In this document: in pieces, positions 6-41,153 of the stretch
How positions within the stretch are numbered: position 1 is the first letter of the stretch
Layout: every line of letters starts with the position of its first letter
Source of the DNA: a virus
Virus record (IMG/VR): IMGVR_UViG_3300032092_000076
Location: 1-41,153 of that record
DNA length: 41,153 nucleotides
Reading direction: 5' to 3' (one strand)
Notes under the pieces: generated by a model
Told to the model about the DNA's origin: nothing
The model's input: only the letters and a program-made list of their open reading frames with translations
The model's database searches: none
Position numbers and translations under genes: made by a program

Positions 6-914
6 ATGAGAATCAGCTGTGAGGAGTTTGAAAAGGCGACAGGAGAGAAGATTTTCCCGCTCGCCCAAGACTTCTTGGAAAAGAATAATCTCGAGTATAA
101 CGATCTCACCACTGATGAAACCGAGAGAGTCCTCTCCGAGATACAGCGTGTGTTATCATCACCGCTTAAGCTGTCTGGTGAATCTCGTCTCCCGGACTGG
201 GAGGCAGGTTGGTCACAAAATCTTACTAGTGAGGTAACACCTGGATCATTGATACCAGGTTACATGAACAAACATCCTATCATGCGCTGGGGTGGGAAGT
301 TCGTCAGTACAGTATCACCTAATCTTGAATACTTGATTCTTTCACTTCTGCAACTTCACCTCTTTGAGAAGTGGCTTGCTAACAGGAGCGACATATTCGA
401 GTTTGGTTGTGGCACAGGGCACAACCTCCTGAGGGCTAGAATGGCAAATCCAACAGCAAGTCTCACAGGTCTTGATTGGACAAAAGCATCCCAAGAGATC
501 ATCGGCAGGATGAATGACTCAGGAGTTCTCCTTTGCAAGGGCAGGAACTTCGACTTCTTCAAGCCTGATTACAGCATCGATTTCCCAAAGGGCAGTGCTG
601 TTTACACTTTCGCTGCCCTAGAGCAAGTTGGAAAGAATCACAAGGCTTTCGTAAAGTTCCTCCTTGATAAGGAAGTTGATATTTGTCTCTCAATAGAGCC
701 CATTACAGAACTGCTCGATAGTTCCGTTGAGATGGAGAAGCTTTGCATTGATTACTGTCAGAAGAGAAACTACCTTGACGGTTACATGACACACCTACAG
801 GAACTTGAAAGTAGTGGTCAGGTAGAGATACTTGAGGCAAAGAGAAACTACATAGGAAGCATGTTCATAGAGGGTTACATGCAGGTCGTGTGGAGACCGA
901 GGAGCAAGGTATGA
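6..914 (+). CDS. SAM-dependent class I methyltransferase
   Basis: This is a probable small-molecule or glycan methyltransferase of the class I Rossmann fold. Motif I is visible as EFGCGTGH at residues 132-139, and the acidic residue ending strand 2 is D157 in GLDW. The N-terminal ~110 residues carry no motif I recognise and may bind substrate. The 302-residue length fits enzymes that methylate sugars or lipids. There is no DPPY/NPPY motif, so a DNA amino-methyltransferase is unlikely. It overlaps the next gene (GDP-L-fucose synthase) by four bases (ATGA), which suggests translational coupling and a role in the same sugar module. A TAA at 1-3 may end an upstream gene. The substrate is unknown. 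Confidence 0.75.
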   Translation: MRISCEEFEKATGEKIFPLAQDFLEKNNLEYNDLTTDETERVLSEIQRVLSSPLKLSGESRLPDWEAGWSQNLTSEVTPGSLIPGYMNKHPIMRWGGKFVSTVSPNLEYLILSLLQLHLFEKWLANRSDIFEFGCGTGHNLLRARMANPTASLTGLDWTKASQEIIGRMNDSGVLLCKGRNFDFFKPDYSIDFPKGSAVYTFAALEQVGKNHKAFVKFLLDKEVDICLSIEPITELLDSSVEMEKLCIDYCQKRNYLDGYMTHLQELESSGQVEILEAKRNYIGSMFIEGYMQVVWRPRSKV

Positions 915-1834
915 AGGCTATTGTTACTGGTGCTGCGGGGCTTCTTGGCAGTGAGATTGTTTCTCTTGACGATTCTGTGATTGGATTGACTTCCAAGGAT
1001 TGCAACCTTGTCGAATCGGCTTCAGGACTGCAGTTATTCACACAGGCCGACACAGTCATCCACTGTGCCGCAAAGGTGGGTGGTGTGAAGGCAAATACCG
1101 ATTATGTCGCAGACTTCTTCGATGACAATGTGAAGATGAACATGAATGTCATGAGGGCGTGTAGAGAATCAGGCTTCAAGCTGGTTTCAATTCTTTCTAC
1201 TTGCATCTATCCTGATGCAAAGTATGTGAATTATCCACTGACTGAGGACCAGCTTCACCTGGGACCTCCACATGATTCGAACTTTGGCTATGCCTATGCA
1301 AAGAGAATGCTTGATGTACAGACTAGAGCCTATCGGAAGCAGCATGGCTGCAACTTCATAACTGTGATACCCAACAGTCTTTACGGAAATAACGACAACT
1401 TCGATCTTAGTAGCGGACATGTGATACCAGCGCTGATCAGAAAGTTTCATGAGGCAAAACTTCATGGTCACGATCATGTTGAGATCTGGGGGAGTGGAAG
1501 GCCGCTTCGTGAGTTCACATTTGCAAGGGATGCAGCTAAGATCATACTGTGGCTTGCTGAGAACTACGATAACCCAGAACCCATCAACATCGGAAACCCA
1601 GAACAGACTTCAATCAAAGAGCTTGCACAAACGATTGCCGAAGAGATTGGTTATGAGGGTGGAGTCAAGTTTGACAACACGAAGCCCGATGGACAGTATG
1701 AGAAGCCCTCTTCAAATGAGAAACTTCAGAGGTTGGGGTGGTCAGAATCATATACACCTCTTCGTATAGGCCTGGCTGAGTCAATAAAGCTGTTCAAAGA
1801 AAGATACCCGAACGTTCGTGGTATTACTATTTGA
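911..1834 (+). CDS. fcl: GDP-L-fucose synthase (NAD-dependent epimerase/reductase)
   Basis: The likely role is converting GDP-4-keto-6-deoxy-D-mannose to GDP-L-fucose with NADPH, the second step after Gmd. It is a short-chain dehydrogenase/reductase of 307 residues, the usual size for this family. The nucleotide-binding glycine motif is GAAGLLG at residues 7-13. The family signature STCIYP lies at 96-101, and the catalytic YxxxK is Y127/K131. VGGVKAN, typical of Fcl, follows IHCAAK. The ATG at 911 is chosen because it overlaps the upstream stop as ATGA and leaves the Rossmann motif right at the N-terminus; a GGAGCAAGG purine stretch precedes it. The next gene is Gmd, so the two steps of the pathway are adjacent but in reversed order. 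Confidence 0.88.
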
Positions 1835-1836
1835 GC

Positions 1837-2808
1837 ATGAAGACAGCACTTATTACAGGCGTCACGGGACAGGACGGTAGTTACCTTGCTGAGTTCCTAT
1901 TGGAACGAGGCTACAAGGTCATAGGCATGAAGAGAAGGACATCGCTTCTTGCCACTGACAGAATCGATCACCTCTTTCAAAACCCAAATTTTCACCTAGT
2001 CTATGGCTCTATGAACGATGTCGGTGCCTTCTATCGACTTTTCCATGAGCATCACTTTGATGAGGTCTACAACCTCGCGGCACAATCGCATGTCAGAGTA
2101 TCTTTTGATGTGCCTGAAGAGACTGTTGATGCAGTAGCAATGGGACCACTTCGTCTTCTTGAGTGCATTCGTACAATGCAGCCACACTGTCGTTTCTACC
2201 AGGCATCCTCTTCGGAGATGTACGGTGACAATCCGGAACATCCGCAGAGCGAGAACACTCGTCTCATGCCGGCATCTCCCTATGCATGCGCAAAGGTCTT
2301 TGCTCACGGTCTCACTCGAAACTATCGTGAGGGATACGGAATCCACGCATCTTCCGGCATCCTTTTCAATCATGAGAGTCCTCGCCGCGGTGAGACTTTC
2401 GTCACACGTAAGATTACCCTAGCTGCAGCGCGTATCAAGCTCGGCCTGCAAGACAAGATCGCTCTCGGCAATCTCGATGCTCTTCGTGACTGGGGATACG
2501 CAAAGGACTACGTCGAGGCAATGTGGCTCATGCTACAGCAGGAAAATCCGGACGACTATGTAATTGCTACTGGTGAGACTCACACAGTGCGTGAGTTTCT
2601 GGATGAAGTTTTCAAAATTGCAGACCTTGATGTTGACAAGCACCTCATCATCGATGACAGGCTTAGGCGTCCTCACGAGGTTCCATGGTTGGAAGGTGAC
2701 TGCTCAAAGGCCGGCGAGAAACTTGGCTGGGTCCCAAAGACAACCTTCAAAGGTCTTGCAAGGCTTATGTACGAGGCAGATCTGAAGCTTGTGAAGGGTG
2801 CACTATGA
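1837..2808 (+). CDS. gmd: GDP-mannose 4,6-dehydratase
   Basis: The enzyme should dehydrate GDP-D-mannose to GDP-4-keto-6-deoxy-D-mannose, the substrate of the upstream Fcl. The N-terminus [10 protein letters not shown] (residues 8-17) is a Gmd hallmark. The SSSEMYG segment at 124-130 and YACAK at 149-153 hold the catalytic Ser/Thr, Glu, Tyr and Lys. [15 protein letters not shown], characteristic of the family, is also present. At 323 residues it is slightly shorter than the usual 345-370. The ATG at 1837 matches known Gmd N-termini. An in-frame TTG at 1831, overlapping the previous stop (TTGA), is the alternative. Its middle part has more C/G-ending codons than the structural genes. Confidence 0.92.
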
Positions 2809-3218
2809 CATATGAGAGAGGCATAATAGCAGGTTCATTTGACATCCTACACCCAGGTTACATACGGATGTTCGAAGAGTCAAAGCGTGTAGTGAGCTAC
2901 CTCATTGTAGCCCTACAGGATGATCCGACTGTTGATAGGCCTGAGAAGTGCAAGCCTGTGCAGACATGGGAAGAAAGAGCTGAGATACTTAAATCGCTTC
3001 GATACGTTGACGATGTGGTCTACTACAACACCGAGTACGACCTCAGAAAGTTGCTTGGTTCCGTAAAGTATGATGTCAGGATTCTTGGATCTGATTACCT
3101 CGGCAGGAGATTCACGGGTGATGACCTGGAAAAACCTGTCTTCTACTGCAACAGGAACCATCAGTACAGTCTCACAGACCTAAAGGAGCGTATTGCGGAG
3201 TCTATGTTGAATAGGTGA
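2805..3218 (+). CDS. Cytidylyltransferase-fold nucleotidyltransferase
   Basis: This 137-residue protein belongs to the TagD/HldE-C type nucleotidyltransferases, which couple a phosphorylated polyol or sugar to CTP or ATP. The N-terminal GSFDILHPG motif (10-18) is the signature nucleotide-binding loop. RILGSDY in the middle and [15 protein letters not shown] near the C-terminus match the conserved later motifs. The second histidine of the HxGH motif is tyrosine here (HPGY, 16-19), which may change catalysis or mark a phage subfamily. It overlaps gmd by four bases (ATGA) and has an AAGGG ribosome binding site. Context suggests it activates a second sugar or polyol for the same glycan. Substrate and nucleotide preference are not visible. 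Confidence 0.75.
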
Positions 3219-3258
3219 AAATGTTGTCACGGTGGTATACGATTAATTTGAGGACCAC

Positions 3259-4053
3259 ATGAGCAACGAATTCCCTACTGGCAAGCCACACGTATCCTAC
3301 TCGGAGGTCAGCACATGGCATTCATGTGGATACAAGCACAAGCTTTCCTACATTGACAAGGTGGTCATCGAACAGGACTGGATTCACGCTGACTTTGGAA
3401 AGCATGTCCACTCAGGAGTTGAGAACTACCTGAAGACCCGTGTGATGGACATTCCCGCAGTTATCAAGCTCATTGAAGATGACTGGGCAGCAAAGGGCCG
3501 TCCGGATGTAGAGAAGTGGAAGTCATGGGCATCTAACATCCTCACCGACTTCCCAGGCTGGTTGGACACGGAACATCCCGGTTGGGAGCTACTCGGTGCT
3601 GAGCTTCCCCTCTATGAGGACATTCCCGAAGAGGAGACCATCAAGTTCAAGGGATTCGTTGACTCCATCGTTCGTGTTCCTCTCAACGAAGAGAGGACAA
3701 AGTGGAAGATCTGGATCCTCGACTGGAAGACAGGACCGGCATACGGATGGCGCAAAGACAAGCTAGAGAACGAACTTGTCCTCGCCCAGCTCTGGCTCTA
3801 CAAGTCATACCTTCTACGAAAGTTAGACCTTCAAAGTCGAGAGGTCGGCTGTGCCTTTGTTGTCCTGAAGAAGGGGGCGAAGCCTGGCTCTACAATTGCT
3901 CGATATGACATCTCAGTAGGACCGAAGCCGATGGAGAAGGGAGAGAAACTTGTCAAGGACATGGTCAACGGTGTCCGTCGAGGCAAGTTCCTAAAGAACA
4001 AGTACAACTGTGAATGGTGTGACTTCGCAAAGAGCGGACACTGTAAGCGGTAA
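3259..4053 (+). CDS. PD-(D/E)XK nuclease with Fe-S cluster pattern (RecB/Cas4-like)
   Basis: This is a probable DNA exonuclease of the RecB/Cas4/AddB-type PD-(D/E)XK superfamily, 264 residues. Visible elements in order are SYSEVSTWHSC (cysteine 23), HVHSGVE with the conserved histidine, GFVDSI with D135, LDWKTG with D155 and K157, and the QLWLYK motif (Q177-K182). The C-terminal cysteines are C251, C254 and C262. The four cysteines, one N-terminal and three C-terminal, match the Fe-S clasp of this group. The start has a GAGGA site four bases upstream. A 40-base gap separates it from the sugar genes, and its C/G-ending codons differ from the structural genes. The likely role is DNA-end processing in recombination or host DNA degradation. 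Confidence 0.85.
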   Translation: MSNEFPTGKPHVSYSEVSTWHSCGYKHKLSYIDKVVIEQDWIHADFGKHVHSGVENYLKTRVMDIPAVIKLIEDDWAAKGRPDVEKWKSWASNILTDFPGWLDTEHPGWELLGAELPLYEDIPEEETIKFKGFVDSIVRVPLNEERTKWKIWILDWKTGPAYGWRKDKLENELVLAQLWLYKSYLLRKLDLQSREVGCAFVVLKKGAKPGSTIARYDISVGPKPMEKGEKLVKDMVNGVRRGKFLKNKYNCEWCDFAKSGHCKR

Positions 4054-4101
4054 CTATTTACATATGCTCTCACTTGTGTGATAGTGATGCAGGTGAGCAC
4101 A

Positions 4102-5346
4102 TTGAGTAAAAAGAAAGTTATCGTCCTTTCCGATCACGCATTAAGCCCGTCGGGTGTGGGTAATCAAACCAGGCACCTGATCAACGGCCTCCTTGCAAAA
4201 GGAGGCTGGACTTTTAGGCAGTTCGGAGCTGCAATTAAGCATCAGAGCTACGAGACAATAGCTGTCAATGAGGACTTTATCATCAAGCCGATTGACGGCT
4301 TTGGTGATAGAAACCTGATTAGAGTTGCACTGGCTACTGAGAAGCCTGATGCTATTCTCATCTTCACAGACCCAAGGTTCTTCACGTGGCTGTTTGAGAT
4401 GGAAGATGAGATACATCAGGTCTGCCCAATCGCATGGTGGCACGTGTGGGATAACAACCCAGTGCCGGTCTTTAATGACCCTTACTACATGGGAACGGAT
4501 CTGCTCAATTGCCATTCTTACCTAACGTACGAGATGGTAAGCAAACTGTATCCTGAAAAGACTAACTTCATCCCACATGCATTGCCACCAGGTCTGTTTC
4601 ACAGGATGCCTTCTTACATGAGGTCACACCATCGTTCAAAGCTGTTGGGTGAATCAAGGAAGGACCACATGATTGGCCTCTGGATCAATCGAAATGCAAG
4701 AAGGAAGCGCCCATCTGACGTTATCGAGTCATGGTCAATTTTCCTTAAGAATCTTCATGAGAAGCATGGACACAGAAATGCCACGCTAATCATGCATACA
4801 GACCCATTTGATCAGGAAGGTCCAAACCTCGTTGAGGTCGCAAAACTAATGGGCGTTGATGCAAATGTCGTTTTCTCGAAAGAGCGGCTTGACTATGAGA
4901 AAATGAACATCCTGCACAACATCAGCGATTTCTGTATCAACATCTCCTACGCAGAAGGTTTCGGGCTCTCTACCCTTGAGTCAATGACTGTAGGTAATCC
5001 CATTGTTGCGATCAAGACAGGAGGCCTTACAAGGCAGGTTGTTGACCACAGGGACGGTTCTGAGAATGGTGTTGCACTCCCTGTCGAGCTTCGAACCCTC
5101 GTAGGTTCCCAGACGGTTCCATACATTTACGAGGATTACGTCACAAATGAGACGATTGCAAAAGCTTACATGCAACTCTTTGAGATGGGACCTGAAGGTC
5201 GTGAGAAGCTTGGCACAAAGGCAATGAACTATGCCAACACAGAGTTCAGTTACCAGAAGACCATTGATGAGTGGGATAGGACTCTCACCGATCTTATTGA
5301 TAACTGGAAGACGAAGAGGAAGACCTGGGAGGTTGAAAAGCTGTGA
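4102..5346 (+). CDS. GT4-type glycosyltransferase 1
   Basis: This is a GT-B fold retaining glycosyltransferase. The N-terminal half begins VIVLSDHALSPSGVGNQTR, a glycine-rich acceptor-side loop. The C-terminal half has SYAEGFGLSTLES with the EX7E pair (E285 and E293 counted from the chosen start), followed by the GGL donor-phosphate loop. The TTG at 4102 is chosen because AGGTG lies six bases upstream and it yields MSKKKVIVLSD. An ATG at 4087 adds five residues but has no visible ribosome binding site. The gene overlaps the next glycosyltransferase by four bases. The likely donor is a nucleotide sugar, possibly GDP-fucose or GDP-mannose from the upstream genes. The acceptor is unknown. Confidence 0.8.
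   Translation: MSKKKVIVLSDHALSPSGVGNQTRHLINGLLAKGGWTFRQFGAAIKHQSYETIAVNEDFIIKPIDGFGDRNLIRVALATEKPDAILIFTDPRFFTWLFEMEDEIHQVCPIAWWHVWDNNPVPVFNDPYYMGTDLLNCHSYLTYEMVSKLYPEKTNFIPHALPPGLFHRMPSYMRSHHRSKLLGESRKDHMIGLWINRNARRKRPSDVIESWSIFLKNLHEKHGHRNATLIMHTDPFDQEGPNLVEVAKLMGVDANVVFSKERLDYEKMNILHNISDFCINISYAEGFGLSTLESMTVGNPIVAIKTGGLTRQVVDHRDGSENGVALPVELRTLVGSQTVPYIYEDYVTNETIAKAYMQLFEMGPEGREKLGTKAMNYANTEFSYQKTIDEWDRTLTDLIDNWKTKRKTWEVEKL
4187..4206 (+). repeat. Perfect inverted repeat: 8-bp stem with GCAA tetraloop
   Basis: The arms GCCTCCTT and AAGGAGGC are perfectly complementary and enclose GCAA, a GNRA-type loop. It lies inside the first glycosyltransferase gene, about 90 bases after its start. A TTTT run begins seven bases after the stem. 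The right arm contains a full Shine-Dalgarno sequence (AAGGAGG), but no start codon follows at suitable distance. It may be a weak terminator, an mRNA stability element or chance. Confidence 0.5.
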
Positions 5347-6500
5347 AGAAGATTCTAGTAAGAGGTCCACTTCTCTCAAAGTCGGGATATGGAACGCATG
5401 CAAGGCAGATAGTGAGCTGGCTCATTGAGAGGGGAATTGAGTTTGCTGCCGAAATTACTCCCTGGGGCATTACCCCTTGGCACTTGAATGCAAGTGACCT
5501 AAACGGTCTCATTGGAAAGATAATGGAGGCATCCGGAAAGAAAAGCGACAGATATGACGCCTCAATCCAGATTCAATTGCCTCATGAGTGGGAGCAGATA
5601 CAGGGCTGCTACAACATTGGAGTTACAGCAGGCACCGAAACTGATTTTGCATCAAAAGATTGGGCGATTGCTGTGTCCAAGATGGATCTCGTAATCGTTC
5701 CAAGCAGTTTCACAAAGGAATCTCTTGTAAGAGGTCAAGCTCCTTCTGACAAAATCGTTGTTATCCCAGAATGTTTCAATCCTGAGATCCTATCAGTGAC
5801 GAGTGGTCTGCCACTCAAAGAGGTGGAATCGAATTTCAACTTTTTGCTCTTTGGCCAGATCACAGGCAATGATCCTGATCGTGACAGAAAGAACATCTTC
5901 TACACCGTGAAGTGGTTCTGCGAAGAGTTTGCTGGAAACAAGGACGTTGGACTTGTGATTAAGTCTAACATGGGAACAAATTGCGTGTTTCACAGGAAGG
6001 CCCTGAACGACCTGTTCAAGAAGCTCATCTCAGAAGTGAGAAAGGGCGAGTACCCAAGGGTTTACTTGTTGAACGGCGACATGTCTGAAGCCGATTGTGC
6101 CGCTCTTTACAAGAGTCCAAAGGTTCACTGCATGGTGTCCTTCACAAAGGGTGAGGGTTATGGTCTTCCTCTAGTTGATGCCGCAGCATCAGGACTGCCT
6201 GTCATAGCCACCGATTGGTCAGGCCATCTTGACTTTCTAAATCGTGGAAAGTTCTCAAAGGTGAGCTACAGTATGGTGAATGTTCCACAGTCGATCATCG
6301 ACGAAAAGATCTTTGCAAGTGGCTCAAAATGGGCTATGCCAAAGGAAGAAGACGCAAAGAAGAGAATGAAGAAGATGGTTGAGTCACGTCACACACCAAA
6401 GCAGTGGGCTGATGAACTTTCTCAAAAAGTCTTAAGTGAATTCTCACAAGAGGCCGTGAATCTTCGATATGACGATGTTCTCGGTAAGTTGCTATGTTGA
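5343..6500 (+). CDS. GT4-type glycosyltransferase 2
   Basis: This second GT-B glycosyltransferase has 385 residues. The N-terminus reads ILVRGPLLSKSGYGTHARQ, the glycine-rich loop of GT4 enzymes. The donor-site motif is GEGYGLPLVDA, with E271 followed seven residues later by D279, so the usual EX7E pair is EX7D here. ATDWSGHLDFL follows. The start is GTG (5343), overlapping the preceding stop as GTGA, with GGAGG upstream. It is not a close copy of the first glycosyltransferase, so the two probably add different sugars or act in sequence. It overlaps the small membrane-protein gene by seven bases. Confidence 0.8.
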   Translation: MKKILVRGPLLSKSGYGTHARQIVSWLIERGIEFAAEITPWGITPWHLNASDLNGLIGKIMEASGKKSDRYDASIQIQLPHEWEQIQGCYNIGVTAGTETDFASKDWAIAVSKMDLVIVPSSFTKESLVRGQAPSDKIVVIPECFNPEILSVTSGLPLKEVESNFNFLLFGQITGNDPDRDRKNIFYTVKWFCEEFAGNKDVGLVIKSNMGTNCVFHRKALNDLFKKLISEVRKGEYPRVYLLNGDMSEADCAALYKSPKVHCMVSFTKGEGYGLPLVDAAASGLPVIATDWSGHLDFLNRGKFSKVSYSMVNVPQSIIDEKIFASGSKWAMPKEEDAKKRMKKMVESRHTPKQWADELSQKVLSEFSQEAVNLRYDDVLGKLLC

Positions 6501-34656: not shown

Positions 34657-36951
34657 ATGTCGTTTGTAAGACTTCCTGAGGGCGCCCTTGACACGTTTGG
34701 TGTTATTGCGAGGCCACATCGAACATACACGTCTTCTTCTTCTGGAATCACGGGTAGCGTAAAAGTTTACCAACGATCATCAGAAAACGAGAAGGAGAGG
34801 ACTGTATTCGAAGACAAGTTCGGAGATGACAGTCCTGATGGTAAGCTAAAGGACTTTAGGAATAGTCCAAGCCTCACAACTGCTGAAGAGTACCTCAATT
34901 CTGTGAATCTGAGTCGTGTGTCAGGTAGACATACAAAATCAGTTGGGGTCATTAGGTTTGAACCATCATTCGAGTTCACCAGTGACACTCTGAGGAAAGG
35001 TGTAATCAGGAATGTATTATACCCCTTCTACGCATCCTCATATCCCCAGTTGAACTGGGGATTCACGAATTACCTGAGTCTTCACTTCCCAAATGGTGTG
35101 GGCCCAAGCTCAGCATCGCTTGTTTACCCATCGTCAGGAGCATTTGGGTACGTTCCATCGAGTTCATTCACGATCGAGACTTACTACAAGCCTTCTTACA
35201 CTGCCGCCACCCACAGACCAGGCACGATCCTTCACGCTTCCTCATCTTTTGCGCTGTCAATAGTTTCAGGATCTAAGAAGGATCCATTTGGCAATGTAGC
35301 TTCCTATAGGGCAATGCTACAACTTAGTCACAGTACTGACATTCCGCCCAGTGAAGTCGACATTACCTTGCCGAACAATGGCAGGTCATTCCCTGAAGAT
35401 CTCATCTTTCTTTCCGATGAGAACATACGATTCAATGAGTGGTCTCATATCGCAGTCAGGTGGGGTCCAAACAACAATGGGTCGACTGGCTCCTTCTACA
35501 TTGATGGTGTCAAGTCCGGTGAGTTCTACATCCCTTCAGGATCGGTTACCTCTGGGACTATTGCAAATGAGGCAGTGTTCATCGGTAACTTCTTTGAGGG
35601 ACCTCTCACGCTTCTCAATAGGCCTTCGGGTTTCTTTAACCAGGATGCCGTAGTCAATGAAGGCGTGACTGACCTATTCAACGCGACACCGACGTATCCA
35701 GAACAGCCTACAACTTTTGATTTGCGGCATCCTCTTGTAGGTGAGATACATGAAACAAAGATCTGGGACAGGTTCCTTGGTATTGCTGAGATTCTGACAA
35801 GCTCACTTCAAGGAACGACTGCCGATGAGAACCTTCTCTTTTACTTGCCTCCATTCTTCGTCAAAGAGTCCCCTTCAAGGAAGGTCTTGCAAACTCCGTT
35901 CCAAGACACACACACAACCACGGACGATCCAATAAACGTGGCAATGAGCTTTGGAGTAGGTGGGCACCTCATAAACCTTGAGAATCATGTCAGGGAGATG
36001 GTGAAGGGTGTCTATCCAAGACTGCTTTTCCTAACGTCAAGCACGTATGACCTTGCTTCAACCTCAAACGCCGAAGCTAACGTCTACATTTATGGCAATG
36101 GCCAGATGCAAAGAAGGAATCTCACCATCTTGCCGTGTGACAATGGCAAGATGGAGCCCAACTTTGGGTTCCTCATATCAGGAAGTGACTACGGTTCAAG
36201 TGGATCCGTGACTGACAAGTTTGTCACTGACCTGGGAAGTTTTGACGCTTCGTTTGTCAACGTGAGCAACCTCGTCCCATCATCTTCCCTATTCCCGGGC
36301 CTCGTTCAAGAAAGTGATATCATTGATGAGATTGTAGGTGCAAGCCCTGAAAATCCCGGAGTTGCGCCAGGATCGGTGTTAACCATCTTTCAGAGGACAA
36401 GGGACGGAAGCTCTAATGCTGTCTCGGTCTTTGACAGTTCAAATCTCATGTACGGCGGAAGAATACACCCAGGGTCTTTTGTGCTGACTGACAATGACTT
36501 CTCAGGAAGCGACGGAACAATGACGATTCGCCTTCGTGATAACGGATTTGGTGGCCTGTATCGTGCTGATGCTTCGTCATCCCACAGCACAAAATCAATT
36601 GTCGGTTCGTGCCTGTACTCAGAGGGCATTGCCACCATCACATCACCTTACTTGGGCGAGATATTCGGCAAGAAGTCTTTCACTGTAGACATGAGGGGTG
36701 AGCAGACCTTACCAGTCCTTGAGATACAAGCAATAGCGCCTGCATGGACTCTTATGAGCAGTTCAAACCCAACATTCAAGCAGTTGCTGTCTTCCGACTA
36801 TGCTAATGACAATGTTCCAGGCTTCGTGTACATTAACAATGTGAACTTTCATGACGAGAATCTAAACATCGTTGCAAAGGCATCATTCGCACAACCGCTT
36901 GTGAAGAGGCCCAACGATAGGATGATGATTCGTGTCAAGTTCGACTTCTAG
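34657..36951 (+). CDS. LamG-containing virion protein
   Basis: This 764-residue protein carries a LamG-like domain at about residues 167-382. The marker strands in order are SSFTIETYYKPSYT, FNEWSHIAVRWGPNNN, GSFYIDGVKSGEFYIPSG and LVGEIHETKIWDRFLGIAEI. The rest is beta-rich. The C-terminus (VNFHDENLNIVAKASFAQPL, ending RVKFDF) matches the end module of the upstream protein. LamG domains usually bind glycans or proteins, so a host-contacting or virion-binding role is plausible. The start has GGAGG seven bases upstream. Two strong perfect inverted repeats lie inside the gene (35042-35062 and 36125-36154). It ends at TAG and overlaps the next gene by 20 bases. Confidence 0.75.
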   Translation: MSFVRLPEGALDTFGVIARPHRTYTSSSSGITGSVKVYQRSSENEKERTVFEDKFGDDSPDGKLKDFRNSPSLTTAEEYLNSVNLSRVSGRHTKSVGVIRFEPSFEFTSDTLRKGVIRNVLYPFYASSYPQLNWGFTNYLSLHFPNGVGPSSASLVYPSSGAFGYVPSSSFTIETYYKPSYTAATHRPGTILHASSSFALSIVSGSKKDPFGNVASYRAMLQLSHSTDIPPSEVDITLPNNGRSFPEDLIFLSDENIRFNEWSHIAVRWGPNNNGSTGSFYIDGVKSGEFYIPSGSVTSGTIANEAVFIGNFFEGPLTLLNRPSGFFNQDAVVNEGVTDLFNATPTYPEQPTTFDLRHPLVGEIHETKIWDRFLGIAEILTSSLQGTTADENLLFYLPPFFVKESPSRKVLQTPFQDTHTTTDDPINVAMSFGVGGHLINLENHVREMVKGVYPRLLFLTSSTYDLASTSNAEANVYIYGNGQMQRRNLTILPCDNGKMEPNFGFLISGSDYGSSGSVTDKFVTDLGSFDASFVNVSNLVPSSSLFPGLVQESDIIDEIVGASPENPGVAPGSVLTIFQRTRDGSSNAVSVFDSSNLMYGGRIHPGSFVLTDNDFSGSDGTMTIRLRDNGFGGLYRADASSSHSTKSIVGSCLYSEGIATITSPYLGEIFGKKSFTVDMRGEQTLPVLEIQAIAPAWTLMSSSNPTFKQLLSSDYANDNVPGFVYINNVNFHDENLNIVAKASFAQPLVKRPNDRMMIRVKFDF
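35042..35062 (+). repeat. Perfect 10-bp inverted repeat around one central base
   Basis: ATCCCCAGTT and AACTGGGGAT are exact reverse complements flanking a single G, inside the LamG gene. As RNA it would fold with a stem of about nine pairs and a three-base loop. No T-run follows, so it is not a typical terminator. It could also be a protein-binding palindrome. It codes for an ordinary part of the protein. Confidence 0.6.
36125..36154 (+). repeat. Perfect inverted repeat: 10-bp stem, 10-base loop
   Basis: CCATCTTGCC (36125-36134) and GGCAAGATGG (36145-36154) are exact reverse complements. Inside the loop a G-T and a T-A pair could extend the stem to twelve, leaving six unpaired bases. It sits in the LamG gene about 800 bases before the resolvase gene. 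No T-run follows. It may be an mRNA stability or processing element upstream of the DNA-metabolism genes, or chance. Confidence 0.6.
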
Positions 36952-37504
36952 AAACTTTCTTGGAATTGATGTAAGCACATCTTGCACGGGATTTGCCCTT
37001 GTAGATGAAAATGGCAAACTGATAGAAGCCTCGTATGTCTACCTCAGTGAGTTTTCAACGATACATGCCAAAGCCGAGCATGTAAGGCAAGAGCTTCAGA
37101 GATATTGTGACAGAAGCGTCTCTTGCATTGCCGTCGAGGAGTGCCTTCTTGGGTTTAGGCGTGGAAAGTCATCTGCACAGACCCTGATCACTCTTGCGAG
37201 ATTCAATGGCGTTGTCCACTACATTGCGTCTTCTGAGTTTGGAATTGACCCGCACACCATCAACGTCTCCACAGCAAGAAAGCAACTTGGGATTCCACTA
37301 GCAAAAGGTGAGAATCCAAAGGTTGCTGTCGCCGCTTGGATGAGACTTCAAGAGCCTGATTATCCTTGGCCTACGAAAGTCGTGAAGCGTGGCAAGCTCA
37401 AGGGTGAGACTGTGCTTGAGAAAGGTGTTGAGGACGCATCAGACGCTTATGTGATGGCAAGGGCGGCACTTCATATGAACTTGTCGTCCAATCGTATAAA
37501 ATGA
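36932..37504 (+). CDS. RuvC-fold Holliday junction resolvase
   Basis: This 190-residue RuvC-like nuclease is expected to cut four-way DNA junctions during recombination and before packaging. The RNase H-fold catalytic residues are visible: D13 in FLGIDVSTSCTGFALVD, E69 in CIAVEECLLG, and D168 and D171 in GVEDASDAYVMA. The helix LARFNGVVHYIA and the PKVAVAAWMRL segment fit the family. It would replace T4 endonuclease VII (gp49). The start is GTG (36932), inside the last 20 bases of the LamG gene, with AGGATGATG upstream. An in-frame ATG near the N-terminus is absent. It opens the DNA-metabolism block with primase next. Confidence 0.85.
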   Translation: MSSSTSRNFLGIDVSTSCTGFALVDENGKLIEASYVYLSEFSTIHAKAEHVRQELQRYCDRSVSCIAVEECLLGFRRGKSSAQTLITLARFNGVVHYIASSEFGIDPHTINVSTARKQLGIPLAKGENPKVAVAAWMRLQEPDYPWPTKVVKRGKLKGETVLEKGVEDASDAYVMARAALHMNLSSNRIK

Positions 37505-37507
37505 TTC

Positions 37508-38470
37508 GTGATAGACATCAATGAAAGGTTTGCCTTCCTAACAAAGGCCATCGGCCCAGGCGCTATCGCTAGAGACGGAGTGAATGCCGTCTTCAAGTGT
37601 CCAAACTGCGGTAAGGACCCAAAGAAGATGAAGCTCGTCGTCAAGATAGATGACGAGAGGTGGCACTGTTGGGTCTGTGATGTGAAGGGCGGATCAATCA
37701 GGGGTCTGCTACGAAAGTATGCACCTCAAACTGTCAATGACTGGGGCAGGCTTTACGGCACAAAGGGCAGGTCAACTTTCCTCGATGAGACCAAGGTCGA
37801 GGCAGAAAAAGTCGAATTCCCTGAGATGTTACCTGTCTCTGAGATTAGAGTGTCAAAGGACCCTGATGCAAAGGCCATATGTGCCTACCTCAAGTCAAGA
37901 GACATATCAGATGAACTTGCGTACAGGTATAGGTTGTGTGGTTCAATTCGAGGTAAGGCTCGTCGAAGAGTCGTGTTTCCGTCCTTTGACTCAGAGGGAT
38001 TACCCAACTATTGGACAGCAAGGTCAGTCGACAAGAGCACGACAATGAGGTATCTCAATCCAAAGATTGAGCGGAAGGACATCATCTTCAACGAAGTTGA
38101 CACTGACTGGTCAACTGAGATCACACTTGTTGAGGGACCATTTGACATGCTAAGAGCCGGCGATAACGCCGTACCATTGCTTGGCTCATCTCTCTCAAAC
38201 GAATCGCTACTATTCAGGCGAATTGTTGAAAATGCAACTCCTGTCGTACTTGCACTGGACGGAGATGTCAAGAAGAAAAGTCACAACATTGCAAGACTCC
38301 TGTACTCGTATGATGTTGAGGTTAGATTACTTGAGACAGGAAACGTAAAAGACGTTGGTGATATGACGTTTGAAGAGTTCCTCACGTGTAAAAAGCGTGC
38401 CACACACTGGAAGCCTGAGGACAGGCTTTCTTTCCTGATCCGGGGAATCTCCTCCGGCTCAATTCTCTGA
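37508..38470 (+). CDS. DNA primase (zinc ribbon plus Toprim)
   Basis: This 320-residue primase would synthesise RNA primers for lagging-strand replication. A zinc ribbon is formed by C31, C34, C54 and C57 (CPNCG ... HCWVC). The Toprim domain is complete: E209 in LVEGPFDML, then D251 and D253 in LALDGD. The length is close to T4 gp61 (342), and the domain order is the same as in T4-like and DnaG-type primases. The start is GTG (37508), three bases after the resolvase stop. The next gene begins eight bases later. Adjacency with the resolvase and the Mre11-Rad50 protein fits a recombination-replication module. Confidence 0.85.
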   Translation: MIDINERFAFLTKAIGPGAIARDGVNAVFKCPNCGKDPKKMKLVVKIDDERWHCWVCDVKGGSIRGLLRKYAPQTVNDWGRLYGTKGRSTFLDETKVEAEKVEFPEMLPVSEIRVSKDPDAKAICAYLKSRDISDELAYRYRLCGSIRGKARRRVVFPSFDSEGLPNYWTARSVDKSTTMRYLNPKIERKDIIFNEVDTDWSTEITLVEGPFDMLRAGDNAVPLLGSSLSNESLLFRRIVENATPVVLALDGDVKKKSHNIARLLYSYDVEVRLLETGNVKDVGDMTFEEFLTCKKRATHWKPEDRLSFLIRGISSGSIL

Positions 38471-38478
38471 GGTAAAAT

Positions 38479-41153
38479 TTGAGAGTAGCACACCTTGCTG
38501 ACATCCACTGGCGCGGAATGAAGCGTCACGATGAGTACGTTCTTGCCTTCAAGGAGTTCGCAGAAAAGGCAAAGAAGCTGAATGTGGATAGAATCCTCGT
38601 TGCAGGAGACATTGTTCATTCAAAGACGCAAGGAATTACTCCAGAACTAATCCAGCACCTCGTCTGGTGGTTCAATACACTGGCCGAAGTCGCTCCCACT
38701 ATCGTCACTCTTGGCAACCACGATGGTCTCATTCTCAATCGATCTCGTCTAGATGCGATCACACCCATCATCGATGCGCTGAAGAGTGATAGAATCATCT
38801 ACCTGCGTGACACAACTGTCTACTTGGACAAGGAGTTCAACGTAGCCTGGTCGAACTTCTCGTGTTTCGACGAGGAGAACTGGAAGAACCTGAAGCCCAT
38901 TCAGGGAATGACCAATATCGCTCTCTTTCACGGTGCTGTCTCAGGGGCCGAGACCGACTCTGAGTGGACCTTGGACGAAGGTGAGGTCGAAGGTCACATC
39001 TTCAACGGCTTCGACTTTGCTCTCCTCGGTGACATTCACAAGTTCCAATACCTCGACCGCCAGAAGCGAATTGCATACCCTGGCTCAACCATTCAGCAGA
39101 ACTTTGGTGAGACCGAGGACAAGGGTTTCCTCCTCTGGGAAATCGAGGACAAGGACACTTGGTCCTCTGAGAGGCACCTTATCACCTCTCCTCCGCCATT
39201 CGTCACGATTGAGTGGCAGGGTTCCATCTCTGAGACTGCAAAGATCGCTTATACGAAGAGAAAGGGAAGCCGATTCCGCATCTCCTCCAACGTCGACCTC
39301 ATGCAGGATGAGATCAAGGGTCTTGCCTCCGTCCTGAAGAACGACTGCGGTGCCATCGAGATCGCATGGAAGATCGAACCCCAGCAGTCCTCCAACACCA
39401 TCAACTTCAGCGACACCTCAATCGAGAAGGAGAGTCTCCGAGATCACAAGACTCACATGAATCTCCTTCGCAAGTACTTTCCTGAGGGTGAGTTCGATGA
39501 GGCATCCTGGAAGGAGATCGGTAACCTCATCGAGAAGAATCTCGCCGTCATCAACGAGGACGAGCAGGTAAAGAACTCGAAGTGGTCCATCAAGAGGATG
39601 GCCTGGGACAATACCTTCGTCTACGGCAAGGACAACGTCATCGATTTCAGCAAGCTACACGGGGTCGTTGGACTGTTTGGCTCAAACCGGACAGGCAAGT
39701 CATCAGTACCAGGCACCATGATGTATGCCCTCTACAATGCAACTGACCGCGGTTCCATTAAGAACATCCACATCGTGAATGCCCGCAAGGGATACTGTAA
39801 GACTTCCATCGACATTGCTGTGGACGGCAAGACCTACCGCATCACTCGCCAGACCACTAAACACACCAACAAGCGTAACCAGACGAACGCCTACACTGCG
39901 ATGAAGATGCACCTCCTCAATGAGGCAGGCGAGGAGGTCTTCGACCTCACCGGTGAGCAGAGGAGCGATTCCGACAAGGTGCTGCGAAACCTTATCGGCA
40001 CCTCTGACGACTTTCTCCTCACCTCCTTTGCATCGCAAGGTGAGATGAACACATTCGTCAAGGCAGGCGCTGCAGTTCGTAAGAACAGGCTCGGCAACTT
40101 CCTCGACCTCGGTGTCTTTGAACAGATTGCGAACAAGCTGAAGTCGGAATCTGTCATGCTCAAGGGAGCAATGAGAGGCAACTCCAACGTTGACTTTGAC
40201 AAGGAGATAGAGAAGACAGTCGAGGATGCCGACGCAGAGCAGGAGAAGATAAAGGGATACGCAGAAAAGGTTGAGTCATTGCGAAAGCTACACACCGATC
40301 TTACTGTCACACTCGCTACTCACAAGGACAAGGGTGTCGTTACCAAGAGCGACGTTGACAACTGCCAGGCAAAGGTCGATGAAGAGACTTCTGAGATTGA
40401 GAGGACTGAGAGAAGAGTTGGAGAGATTACCTCAGAGCTTAATGCAGCAAGAGAAAGATCTGCAAAGATAGCAAAGCTAAGAGAGAACTTTCCAATAGGT
40501 GAACTTAGGACAGAACTTACCTTGTTGAATGACCTCGAGAAGGCTGAGGCTCGCCTGGTTGCAAACCTCGAGAAGGAAAAGGTCGTCGCAAAGAATCAGG
40601 AGAAGTCAGTCGCAAGGCTTGAAGAAGTTCCTTGCGGAGATTCTTTCCCCACCTGTAAGTTCATTAAGGACTCTCACAGGGACAAGAAGCTCCTTGAAGA
40701 ACAGAAGAATGTCATATCCGGCATAGCGACTGAACTGAAGGGTGTTAGTTCATCACTGAGAGGACTTAGAGAAAAGTCGCTTGCTGAAAAAATAGAGAAG
40801 TACGAGAAGTTCCTGAAGGAGGAGACTCTTCTAAACGAGAAGGTTCTCTCATCCGAAAGAGAAAGAAAGCTGCTGAGTGAGTCAAAGGAGGCTAGGGAAG
40901 AAAAGCTACTCAAGCTACAGTCTGAACTGTCTTCACTCAGGCTCAGGGTTTCCGACGACAACACGGGTGAGGAAGTCGAGAGGGTCAAGGTCAAGATAAA
41001 TGAGGCTTCGCAGCTTCTCAAGAAGACACAGTCTCTCCTCGACGACTCTAACCGAAACGTTGGTATGCTGCAGGCACGCACCAAGGAGCTCAAGGCCAAC
41101 AAAGAGGAGTTTGAGGAGAAGCGTAGGAAGTGGAAGGTCTACGAATCTCTCAT
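38479..41153 (+). CDS. Mre11-Rad50 (SbcD-SbcC, T4 gp47-gp46) fusion, incomplete at window end
   Basis: One uninterrupted frame of 891 codons joins a nuclease and its partner ATPase. Residues ~1-330 are an Mre11/SbcD phosphoesterase: D8 and H10 (ADIHW), D44 (GDIVH), GNHD at 79-82, H151 (LFHG), H187 (GDIHK), then YPGSTIQQNFGE (200-211). Residues from about 375 are a Rad50/SbcC ATPase: Walker A GSNRTGKSS at 401-409 and the Q-loop SFASQGE with Q520. A charged coiled coil runs from about 575 to the window end, with C719 and C726 (CX6C) as a possible hook. In T4, E. coli and archaea these are two proteins. I read every codon and found no stop or frameshift. The start is TTG with GAGG six bases upstream. 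The second ATPase lobe lies beyond the window. Confidence 0.88.
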   Translation, partial: MRVAHLADIHWRGMKRHDEYVLAFKEFAEKAKKLNVDRILVAGDIVHSKTQGITPELIQHLVWWFNTLAEVAPTIVTLGNHDGLILNRSRLDAITPIIDALKSDRIIYLRDTTVYLDKEFNVAWSNFSCFDEENWKNLKPIQGMTNIALFHGAVSGAETDSEWTLDEGEVEGHIFNGFDFALLGDIHKFQYLDRQKRIAYPGSTIQQNFGETEDKGFLLWEIEDKDTWSSERHLITSPPPFVTIEWQGSISETAKIAYTKRKGSRFRISSNVDLMQDEIKGLASVLKNDCGAIEIAWKIEPQQSSNTINFSDTSIEKESLRDHKTHMNLLRKYFPEGEFDEASWKEIGNLIEKNLAVINEDEQVKNSKWSIKRMAWDNTFVYGKDNVIDFSKLHGVVGLFGSNRTGKSSVPGTMMYALYNATDRGSIKNIHIVNARKGYCKTSIDIAVDGKTYRITRQTTKHTNKRNQTNAYTAMKMHLLNEAGEEVFDLTGEQRSDSDKVLRNLIGTSDDFLLTSFASQGEMNTFVKAGAAVRKNRLGNFLDLGVFEQIANKLKSESVMLKGAMRGNSNVDFDKEIEKTVEDADAEQEKIKGYAEKVESLRKLHTDLTVTLATHKDKGVVTKSDVDNCQAKVDEETSEIERTERRVGEITSELNAARERSAKIAKLRENFPIGELRTELTLLNDLEKAEARLVANLEKEKVVAKNQEKSVARLEEVPCGDSFPTCKFIKDSHRDKKLLEEQKNVISGIATELKGVSSSLRGLREKSLAEKIEKYEKFLKEETLLNEKVLSSERERKLLSESKEAREEKLLKLQSELSSLRLRVSDDNTGEEVERVKVKINEASQLLKKTQSLLDDSNRNVGMLQARTKELKANKEEFEEKRRKWKVYESL

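Follow-up and report, generated by a model that had tools for sequence, protein, structure and literature searches.

A fused Mre11-Rad50 gene in a replication-recombination cassette of a marine-type bacterial virus

The fusion gene and its neighbours

The window analysed here is the whole of a 41,153-nucleotide record from a marine-type bacterial virus (IMG/VR IMGVR_UViG_3300032092_000076). At its 3′ end, positions 38479-41151 of the plus strand form one open frame of 891 codons that runs off the contig edge, an extent with a chance probability of about 6e-22 at the base composition of the window. The coding sequence (38479..41153, with the 3′ end outside the window; about 1045 aa in homologue L002) begins with a TTG codon a few bases past the stop codon of a primase gene. 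Judged from the sequence, a GAGGT that lies 5 bases ahead of the TTG and overlaps this stop codon (38469..38473, plus strand) is a possible Shine-Dalgarno element.

The initial annotation described a full set of Mre11/SbcD motifs followed, in the same frame, by Rad50/SbcC Walker A and Q-loop motifs and a coiled coil, and our examination confirms this order, with all features on the plus strand. Residues 1-240 (38479..39198) constitute an Mre11/SbcD phosphoesterase domain carrying the D-x-H motif (ADIH, residues 7-10), GDIVH (43-47), GNHD (79-82), FHG (150-152), GDIHK (184-188) and YPGS (200-203). A capping domain follows at residues 241-299 (39199..39375); over residues 1-300, a structural model aligns with the nuclease and capping domains of Staphylococcus aureus SbcD (7dog, Z 25.1) and with Thermotoga maritima Mre11 (3tho, Z 25.6). 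A predicted helix-loop-helix at residues 323-360 (39445..39558; model helices 323-333 and 341-360) is a candidate Rad50-binding segment, and in the model a short linker (residues 361-368, 39559..39582) leads from it to the Rad50 half. There, the Rad50/SbcC ATPase N-lobe (39583..40110) includes the Walker A sequence GSNRTGKS (residues 401-408, 39679-39702) and ASQGEM in the Q-loop region (residues 518-523, 40030-40047). The ascending coiled-coil arm (40111..40626; AlphaFold2 helices 545-716) rises to the apex sequence PCGDSFPTCKF (40630..40662), in which Cys719-x6-Cys726 replaces the CxxC zinc hook, and the descending arm (40666..41153) ends at the contig edge. Database models agree with this assignment: Pfam Metallophos (calcineurin-like phosphoesterase) matches residues 1-188 (E 2.5e-10) and the SbcC-like family phrog_77 of PHROGs matches residues 306-886 (E 7e-27). 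The catalytic positions are invariant or nearly so throughout the fusion family.

Two conserved neighbours lie upstream on the same strand, a DNA primase (37508..38470; phrog_47, E 3.7e-42) and a RuvC-like Holliday-junction resolvase (36932..37504; phrog_159, E 1.1e-14). Among the matches listed, 88 fused loci have at least 1.5 kb of upstream sequence; 86 of these carry a primase homologue and 79 a resolvase homologue, usually immediately upstream, and the order RuvC-primase-fusion is conserved. Downstream of the fusion in a related contig (L033) come two small ORFs, the first of them cysteine-rich, and then genes for a terminase large subunit and a portal, both T4-type. The fusion locus is thus a replication-recombination cassette beside packaging genes.

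A sugar-nucleotide block elsewhere in the window (890-6500) encodes two epimerase-like proteins, one heptose-type nucleotidyltransferase and a pair of glycosyltransferases; a PD-(D/E)XK exonuclease gene (3259-4053) sits among them. Several large genes of up to 1451 codons (13503-34631) lie between a baseplate-like gene and the replication cassette. The PHROGs and Pfam searches run here gave no matches for them, and they probably encode tail or fibre proteins.

Integrity and distribution of the fused frame

The completeness of the gene is read from two relatives, since the copy in the window has no 3′ end. The fusion of L002, which is 96% identical to that of the window in amino acids and 89% in bases, closes at about 1045 residues after a signature GSGMEK, a Walker B/D-loop LIIDEGFGALDD and an H-loop ISH. 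L033 matches the last 125 bases of the window at every position, and its frame ends with the same elements (SGMEK, LIIDEGFGALDD, ISH). Walker A is therefore present in the window itself, and the signature, Walker B and H-loop are read in L002 and L033, where the frame closes with the expected C-terminal lobe. The signature in these two is SGMEK rather than SGGE.

Codon differences between the window and L002 number 228 silent and 34 changing over the whole frame, and 16 silent and two changing in residues 300-400. Judging from these counts, the whole frame, junction included, is under purifying selection; it is a single selected gene and not an erroneous joining of two. The same comparison rules out the missed stop or frameshift at the junction that the initial annotation advised checking for with long reads.

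The fused form was then scored among relatives. An IMG/VR scan with a single protein gave 32 loci, mostly full-length matches, and two alignment-based scans gave at least 589 and at least 595 confirmed relatives. Retrieved loci were called fused or split according to which open frames hold the Mre11, N-lobe and C-lobe models. Among the matches listed, Mre11 and the N-lobe share one frame in 125 of the 196 loci of the first set, including the window locus. In the viral exceptions of this set (L033, L099 and L109) the contig starts within the gene; the remaining non-fused loci are cellular, mostly split SbcD-SbcC operons. All 79 loci of the second set, again among the matches listed, are fused. 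Nearly all viral relatives listed that have both halves are therefore fused (more than 190 loci, with L035 scored as fused through a weak second match although its Mre11 part is interrupted), whereas cellular relatives are split operons. Cultured phages also encode the fusion as a single CDS: Microcystis phage Mel-JY01, Tenacibaculum phages PTm1 and pT24, Sphingomonas phage PAU, Chryseobacterium phage MA9V-1 and Thermus phage phiLo.

These data bear on the proposal that the fusion is a sequencing or assembly artefact with a stop or frameshift missed between the halves. SPO1-like phages do carry two adjacent genes, and Listeria phage LMTA-57 has a single fused 1009-aa CDS (L288, 1407-4436) where the related A511 (L289) has two adjacent genes, which could be either an artefact or a recent fusion. 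For the window gene, however, more than 190 fused loci, a 96% identical relative in the same frame and purifying selection across the junction refute the proposal, and we consider an artefact here vanishingly improbable. The same architecture that the initial annotation suggested seeking in phage proteins is widespread, and close relatives are not split at the fusion point; among the viral loci listed with both halves, the sole irregularity is an inserted ORF in L035.

That ORF (L035 5665-6579, in the 484-kb phage LR756508.1) encodes 305 aa, interrupts the Mre11 part just after GDIHK and has the appearance of a homing element, with a domain that Pfam assigns to TnsA-like endonucleases (E 5.8e-06); an Rfam search of L035 for an intron gave no match. 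In CP070664.1, the chromosome of a WOR-3 MAG, the two ends of a phage fusion gene (L122 and L129) are separated by about 1.4 Mb, next to runs of N, and phage contigs therefore seem to have been scaffolded into this bacterial chromosome. A plasmid search with the Mre11 half returned only distant matches annotated as exonucleases or metallophosphatases.

Predicted assembly, role and relationship to known systems

An AlphaFold2 model of L002, built with 22 sequences, has a mean pLDDT of 82 and a pTM of 0.47, the latter being low probably because of the long coil. In this model, the nuclease occupies residues 1-240 and the capping domain 241-299, followed by a disordered stretch at 301-316, the helix-loop-helix at 323-360 and a linker at 361-367; the ATPase N-lobe starts at 368, the arms run to 716 and from 730, and the C-lobe extends to 1045. 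The Rad50 part matches Escherichia coli SbcC (7yzo_D, Z 30.8, rmsd 3.6, 353 aligned). A separate model of window residues 1-395 (pLDDT 85, pTM 0.73) matches SbcD/Mre11 nuclease-plus-capping structures at Z 24-26. Both halves are thus predicted to adopt the right folds, and motifs, domain matches and folds together bear out a true Mre11-Rad50 fusion with an N-terminal nuclease.

The initial annotation also supposed that fusion would constrain how a dimer can assemble. Such a constraint is not obvious in the model, which places some 20 disordered residues (301-322) between the capping domain and the helix-loop-helix, in addition to the short linker at 361-367, and the idea is weakened to the extent that this predicted flexibility is real. 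With these two linkers, a pair of fused chains should be able to adopt the canonical 2:2 geometry.

We consider it very probable that the gene comes from a tailed phage whose packaging genes are T4-type, and that it encodes in a single chain the Mre11-Rad50 machine for DNA-end processing (SbcD-SbcC, T4 gp47-gp46). For its nuclease and ATPase activities, stoichiometry, dimer geometry and biological role, we infer the following from the known systems. Most likely, two such chains would come together in the usual M2R2 assembly, in which the Mre11 domains would pair, the Rad50 heads would close on ATP and the arms would join at the hook. ATP binding and hydrolysis would gate the entry of DNA ends to the nuclease. 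The Mre11 half, with its motifs present, may act as a Mn-dependent nuclease. The first His of the GHxH motif (Pyrococcus furiosus, Pfu, His206) is Asp in the window, as it is in Mimivirus R555, and this change could alter metal binding or activity.

The likeliest job of such a machine would be resection of phage DNA ends for recombination-dependent replication, together with the co-encoded primase and RuvC-like resolvase, as for T4 gp46/gp47. Alternatively, the same protein could serve mainly to break down the host chromosome, or to clear branched or hairpin DNA ahead of packaging. SbcCD is known to cleave hairpins, and in L033 the T4-type terminase and portal genes are only two small ORFs past the fusion. 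T4 gp46/gp47 are required both for recombination and for degradation of host DNA (PMC3175470; database record notes). However, the immediate conserved neighbours are the primase and RuvC, which indicates a role in replication and recombination. Although the two roles are not exclusive, we regard the alternative as the main task as rather unlikely, and favor end resection for replication.

Fusions of this kind are not new. Yoshida, Claverie and Ogata described Mimivirus R555 and twelve other Mre11/Rad50 fusions from phage, plasmids and eukaryotes in 2011 (PMC3175470), with Bacillus phage 0305phi8-36 as the named phage example, and this answers the question, left uncertain by the initial annotation, of whether such proteins had been catalogued: they have been since 2011, and they also occur in cultured phages. 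The window gene is a genuine and well-conserved member of this known class. Relevant passages of a review of jumbo phages treat SbcC and SbcD as near-universal genes of these phages and make no mention of the fusion (PMC7824862).

R555 has the same domain order in a single chain, and the window shares both of its active-site deviations, GDxxH for GDxxD (GDIVH, 43-47) and the Asp at the Pfu His206 position (in GDIHK, 184-188). The capping domain (241-299), helix-loop-helix (323-360) and short linker between the halves in our model likewise resemble those of R555-type fusions. R555 differs in length, with 1351 aa and a longer coil against about 1045 aa for the window type, and in source, being a Mimivirus protein, whereas the sequences compared in this analysis come from bacterial viruses. 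The top viral structural matches of both models in BFVD are nevertheless Mimiviridae fusions (Tupanvirus, Yasminevirus and Harvfovirus), of which the Tupanvirus protein is 29% identical to the window over the Mre11 half. As far as these model-based matches indicate, the window fusion stands nearer to the Mimiviridae fusions than to proteins of the split type. For the R555 relatives in seawater, the 2011 paper argued that they belong to phages, with primases among their neighbours (PMC3175470). The window gene adjoins a phage primase as these aquatic metagenome homologues do, and contigs like the window, with their gene context, support the 2011 inference.

T4 gp47/gp46, T5 D12/D13, the SPO1-type proteins and bacterial SbcD/SbcC comprise the same two enzymes and probably carry out the same reaction, but they are encoded by two separate genes and occupy a separate tree branch. 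The nuclease and ATPase are distinct subunits in SbcCD and T4 gp46-gp47, while in the window type they share one frame and are also fused in the viral relatives that have both halves. Separate maximum-likelihood trees were built for the ATPase lobes and for the Mre11 domain, both without a Mimivirus sequence. In both trees, the fused phage proteins other than that of phiLo group together, apart from T4-like, T5-like, SPO1-like and cellular split proteins, with branch support of 94/90 (ATPase) and 95/92 (Mre11). This clade includes the single-CDS fusions of Mel-JY01, PTm1, pT24, PAU (gp288) and MA9V-1, which differ from the window in having CxxC hooks and, in the jumbo-phage forms, a length of about 1300 aa. 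The Mel-JY01 protein is annotated as an AAA domain containing protein.

The simplest reading of the trees is one fusion at the base of the phage clade, kept since. The phiLo protein (phiLo_161; L203 4412-7012) is also an Mre11-Rad50 fusion, of 866 aa and with a CxxC hook, but it lies outside the clade of the window in both trees on a very long branch and probably reflects a separate event; its annotation is merely endonuclease subunit. The phiLo and LMTA-57 genes suggest further fusions, that of LMTA-57 being recent or a sequencing error. In the Mre11 tree, the fused phage clade also contains an Mre11-only ORF from a Bacteroidales MAG (L130, RUG12352). Its locus has no Rad50 match, and the ORF is possibly a fission product or an orphan nuclease.

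The coiled-coil hook

The CxxC tip of Rad50 has been described as highly conserved (PMC9569753), yet the coil apex of the window carries C-x6-C. Among the matches listed, 172 distinct fused relatives have 104 wide hooks (101 with a spacing of six residues and three with seven), 64 CxxC hooks, three of the form PCxC...C and one that fits none of these. The five split phage Rad50s that were read have CPxC or CSLC hooks. No account of a Rad50 hook of the C-x6-C type turned up in the open-licence papers searched. A hinge-less SMC from the ocean, considered as a possible earlier sighting, was rejected, being an actinobacterial SMC without viral homologues (PMC12153180).

A FastTree phylogeny of Mre11 and the two ATPase lobes shows four changes of hook type. 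For L082/L084, L211 and L278, the best matches of the body segments are wide-hook proteins, but those of the hook segment (about residues 690-760) are CxxC proteins; the hook segment of L084, for example, is 58% identical to that of L211 over 52 residues. L258 is also listed among the loci with an apparent exchange between wide and CxxC hooks. These segment matches suggest at least two exchanges of the hook as a module. Module exchange is the simplest reading, and the alternatives are convergence or repeated origin of the wide hook.

The absence of CxxC, and the departure of C-x6-C from known hook geometry, could mean that the wide hook works without zinc, the arms joining by some other contact or by a disulphide, or not joining at all, which would make the protein a non-hooked nuclease. 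However, the two cysteines at the apex of the coil are almost invariant, and related proteins have true CxxC hooks in exchange for wide ones. These two features suggest an equivalent joining function, and we consider a non-zinc hook doubtful. A bolder proposal, which we put forward tentatively as plausible but somewhat short of probable, is that most members of the phage family join their arms through the C-x6-C wide hook and that wide and CxxC hooks are traded between phages as a module.

If this proposal is true, hook chemistry would be a swappable dimerisation code and not a fixed feature of Rad50. Replacing the Rad50 hook with an SMC hinge works in yeast (PMC6969161), and similar replacements seem to have arisen in nature. 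Pairs such as L065/L082 and L110/L211, natural chimeras whose bodies are similar but whose hooks differ, may thus be used to ask what job the hook performs.
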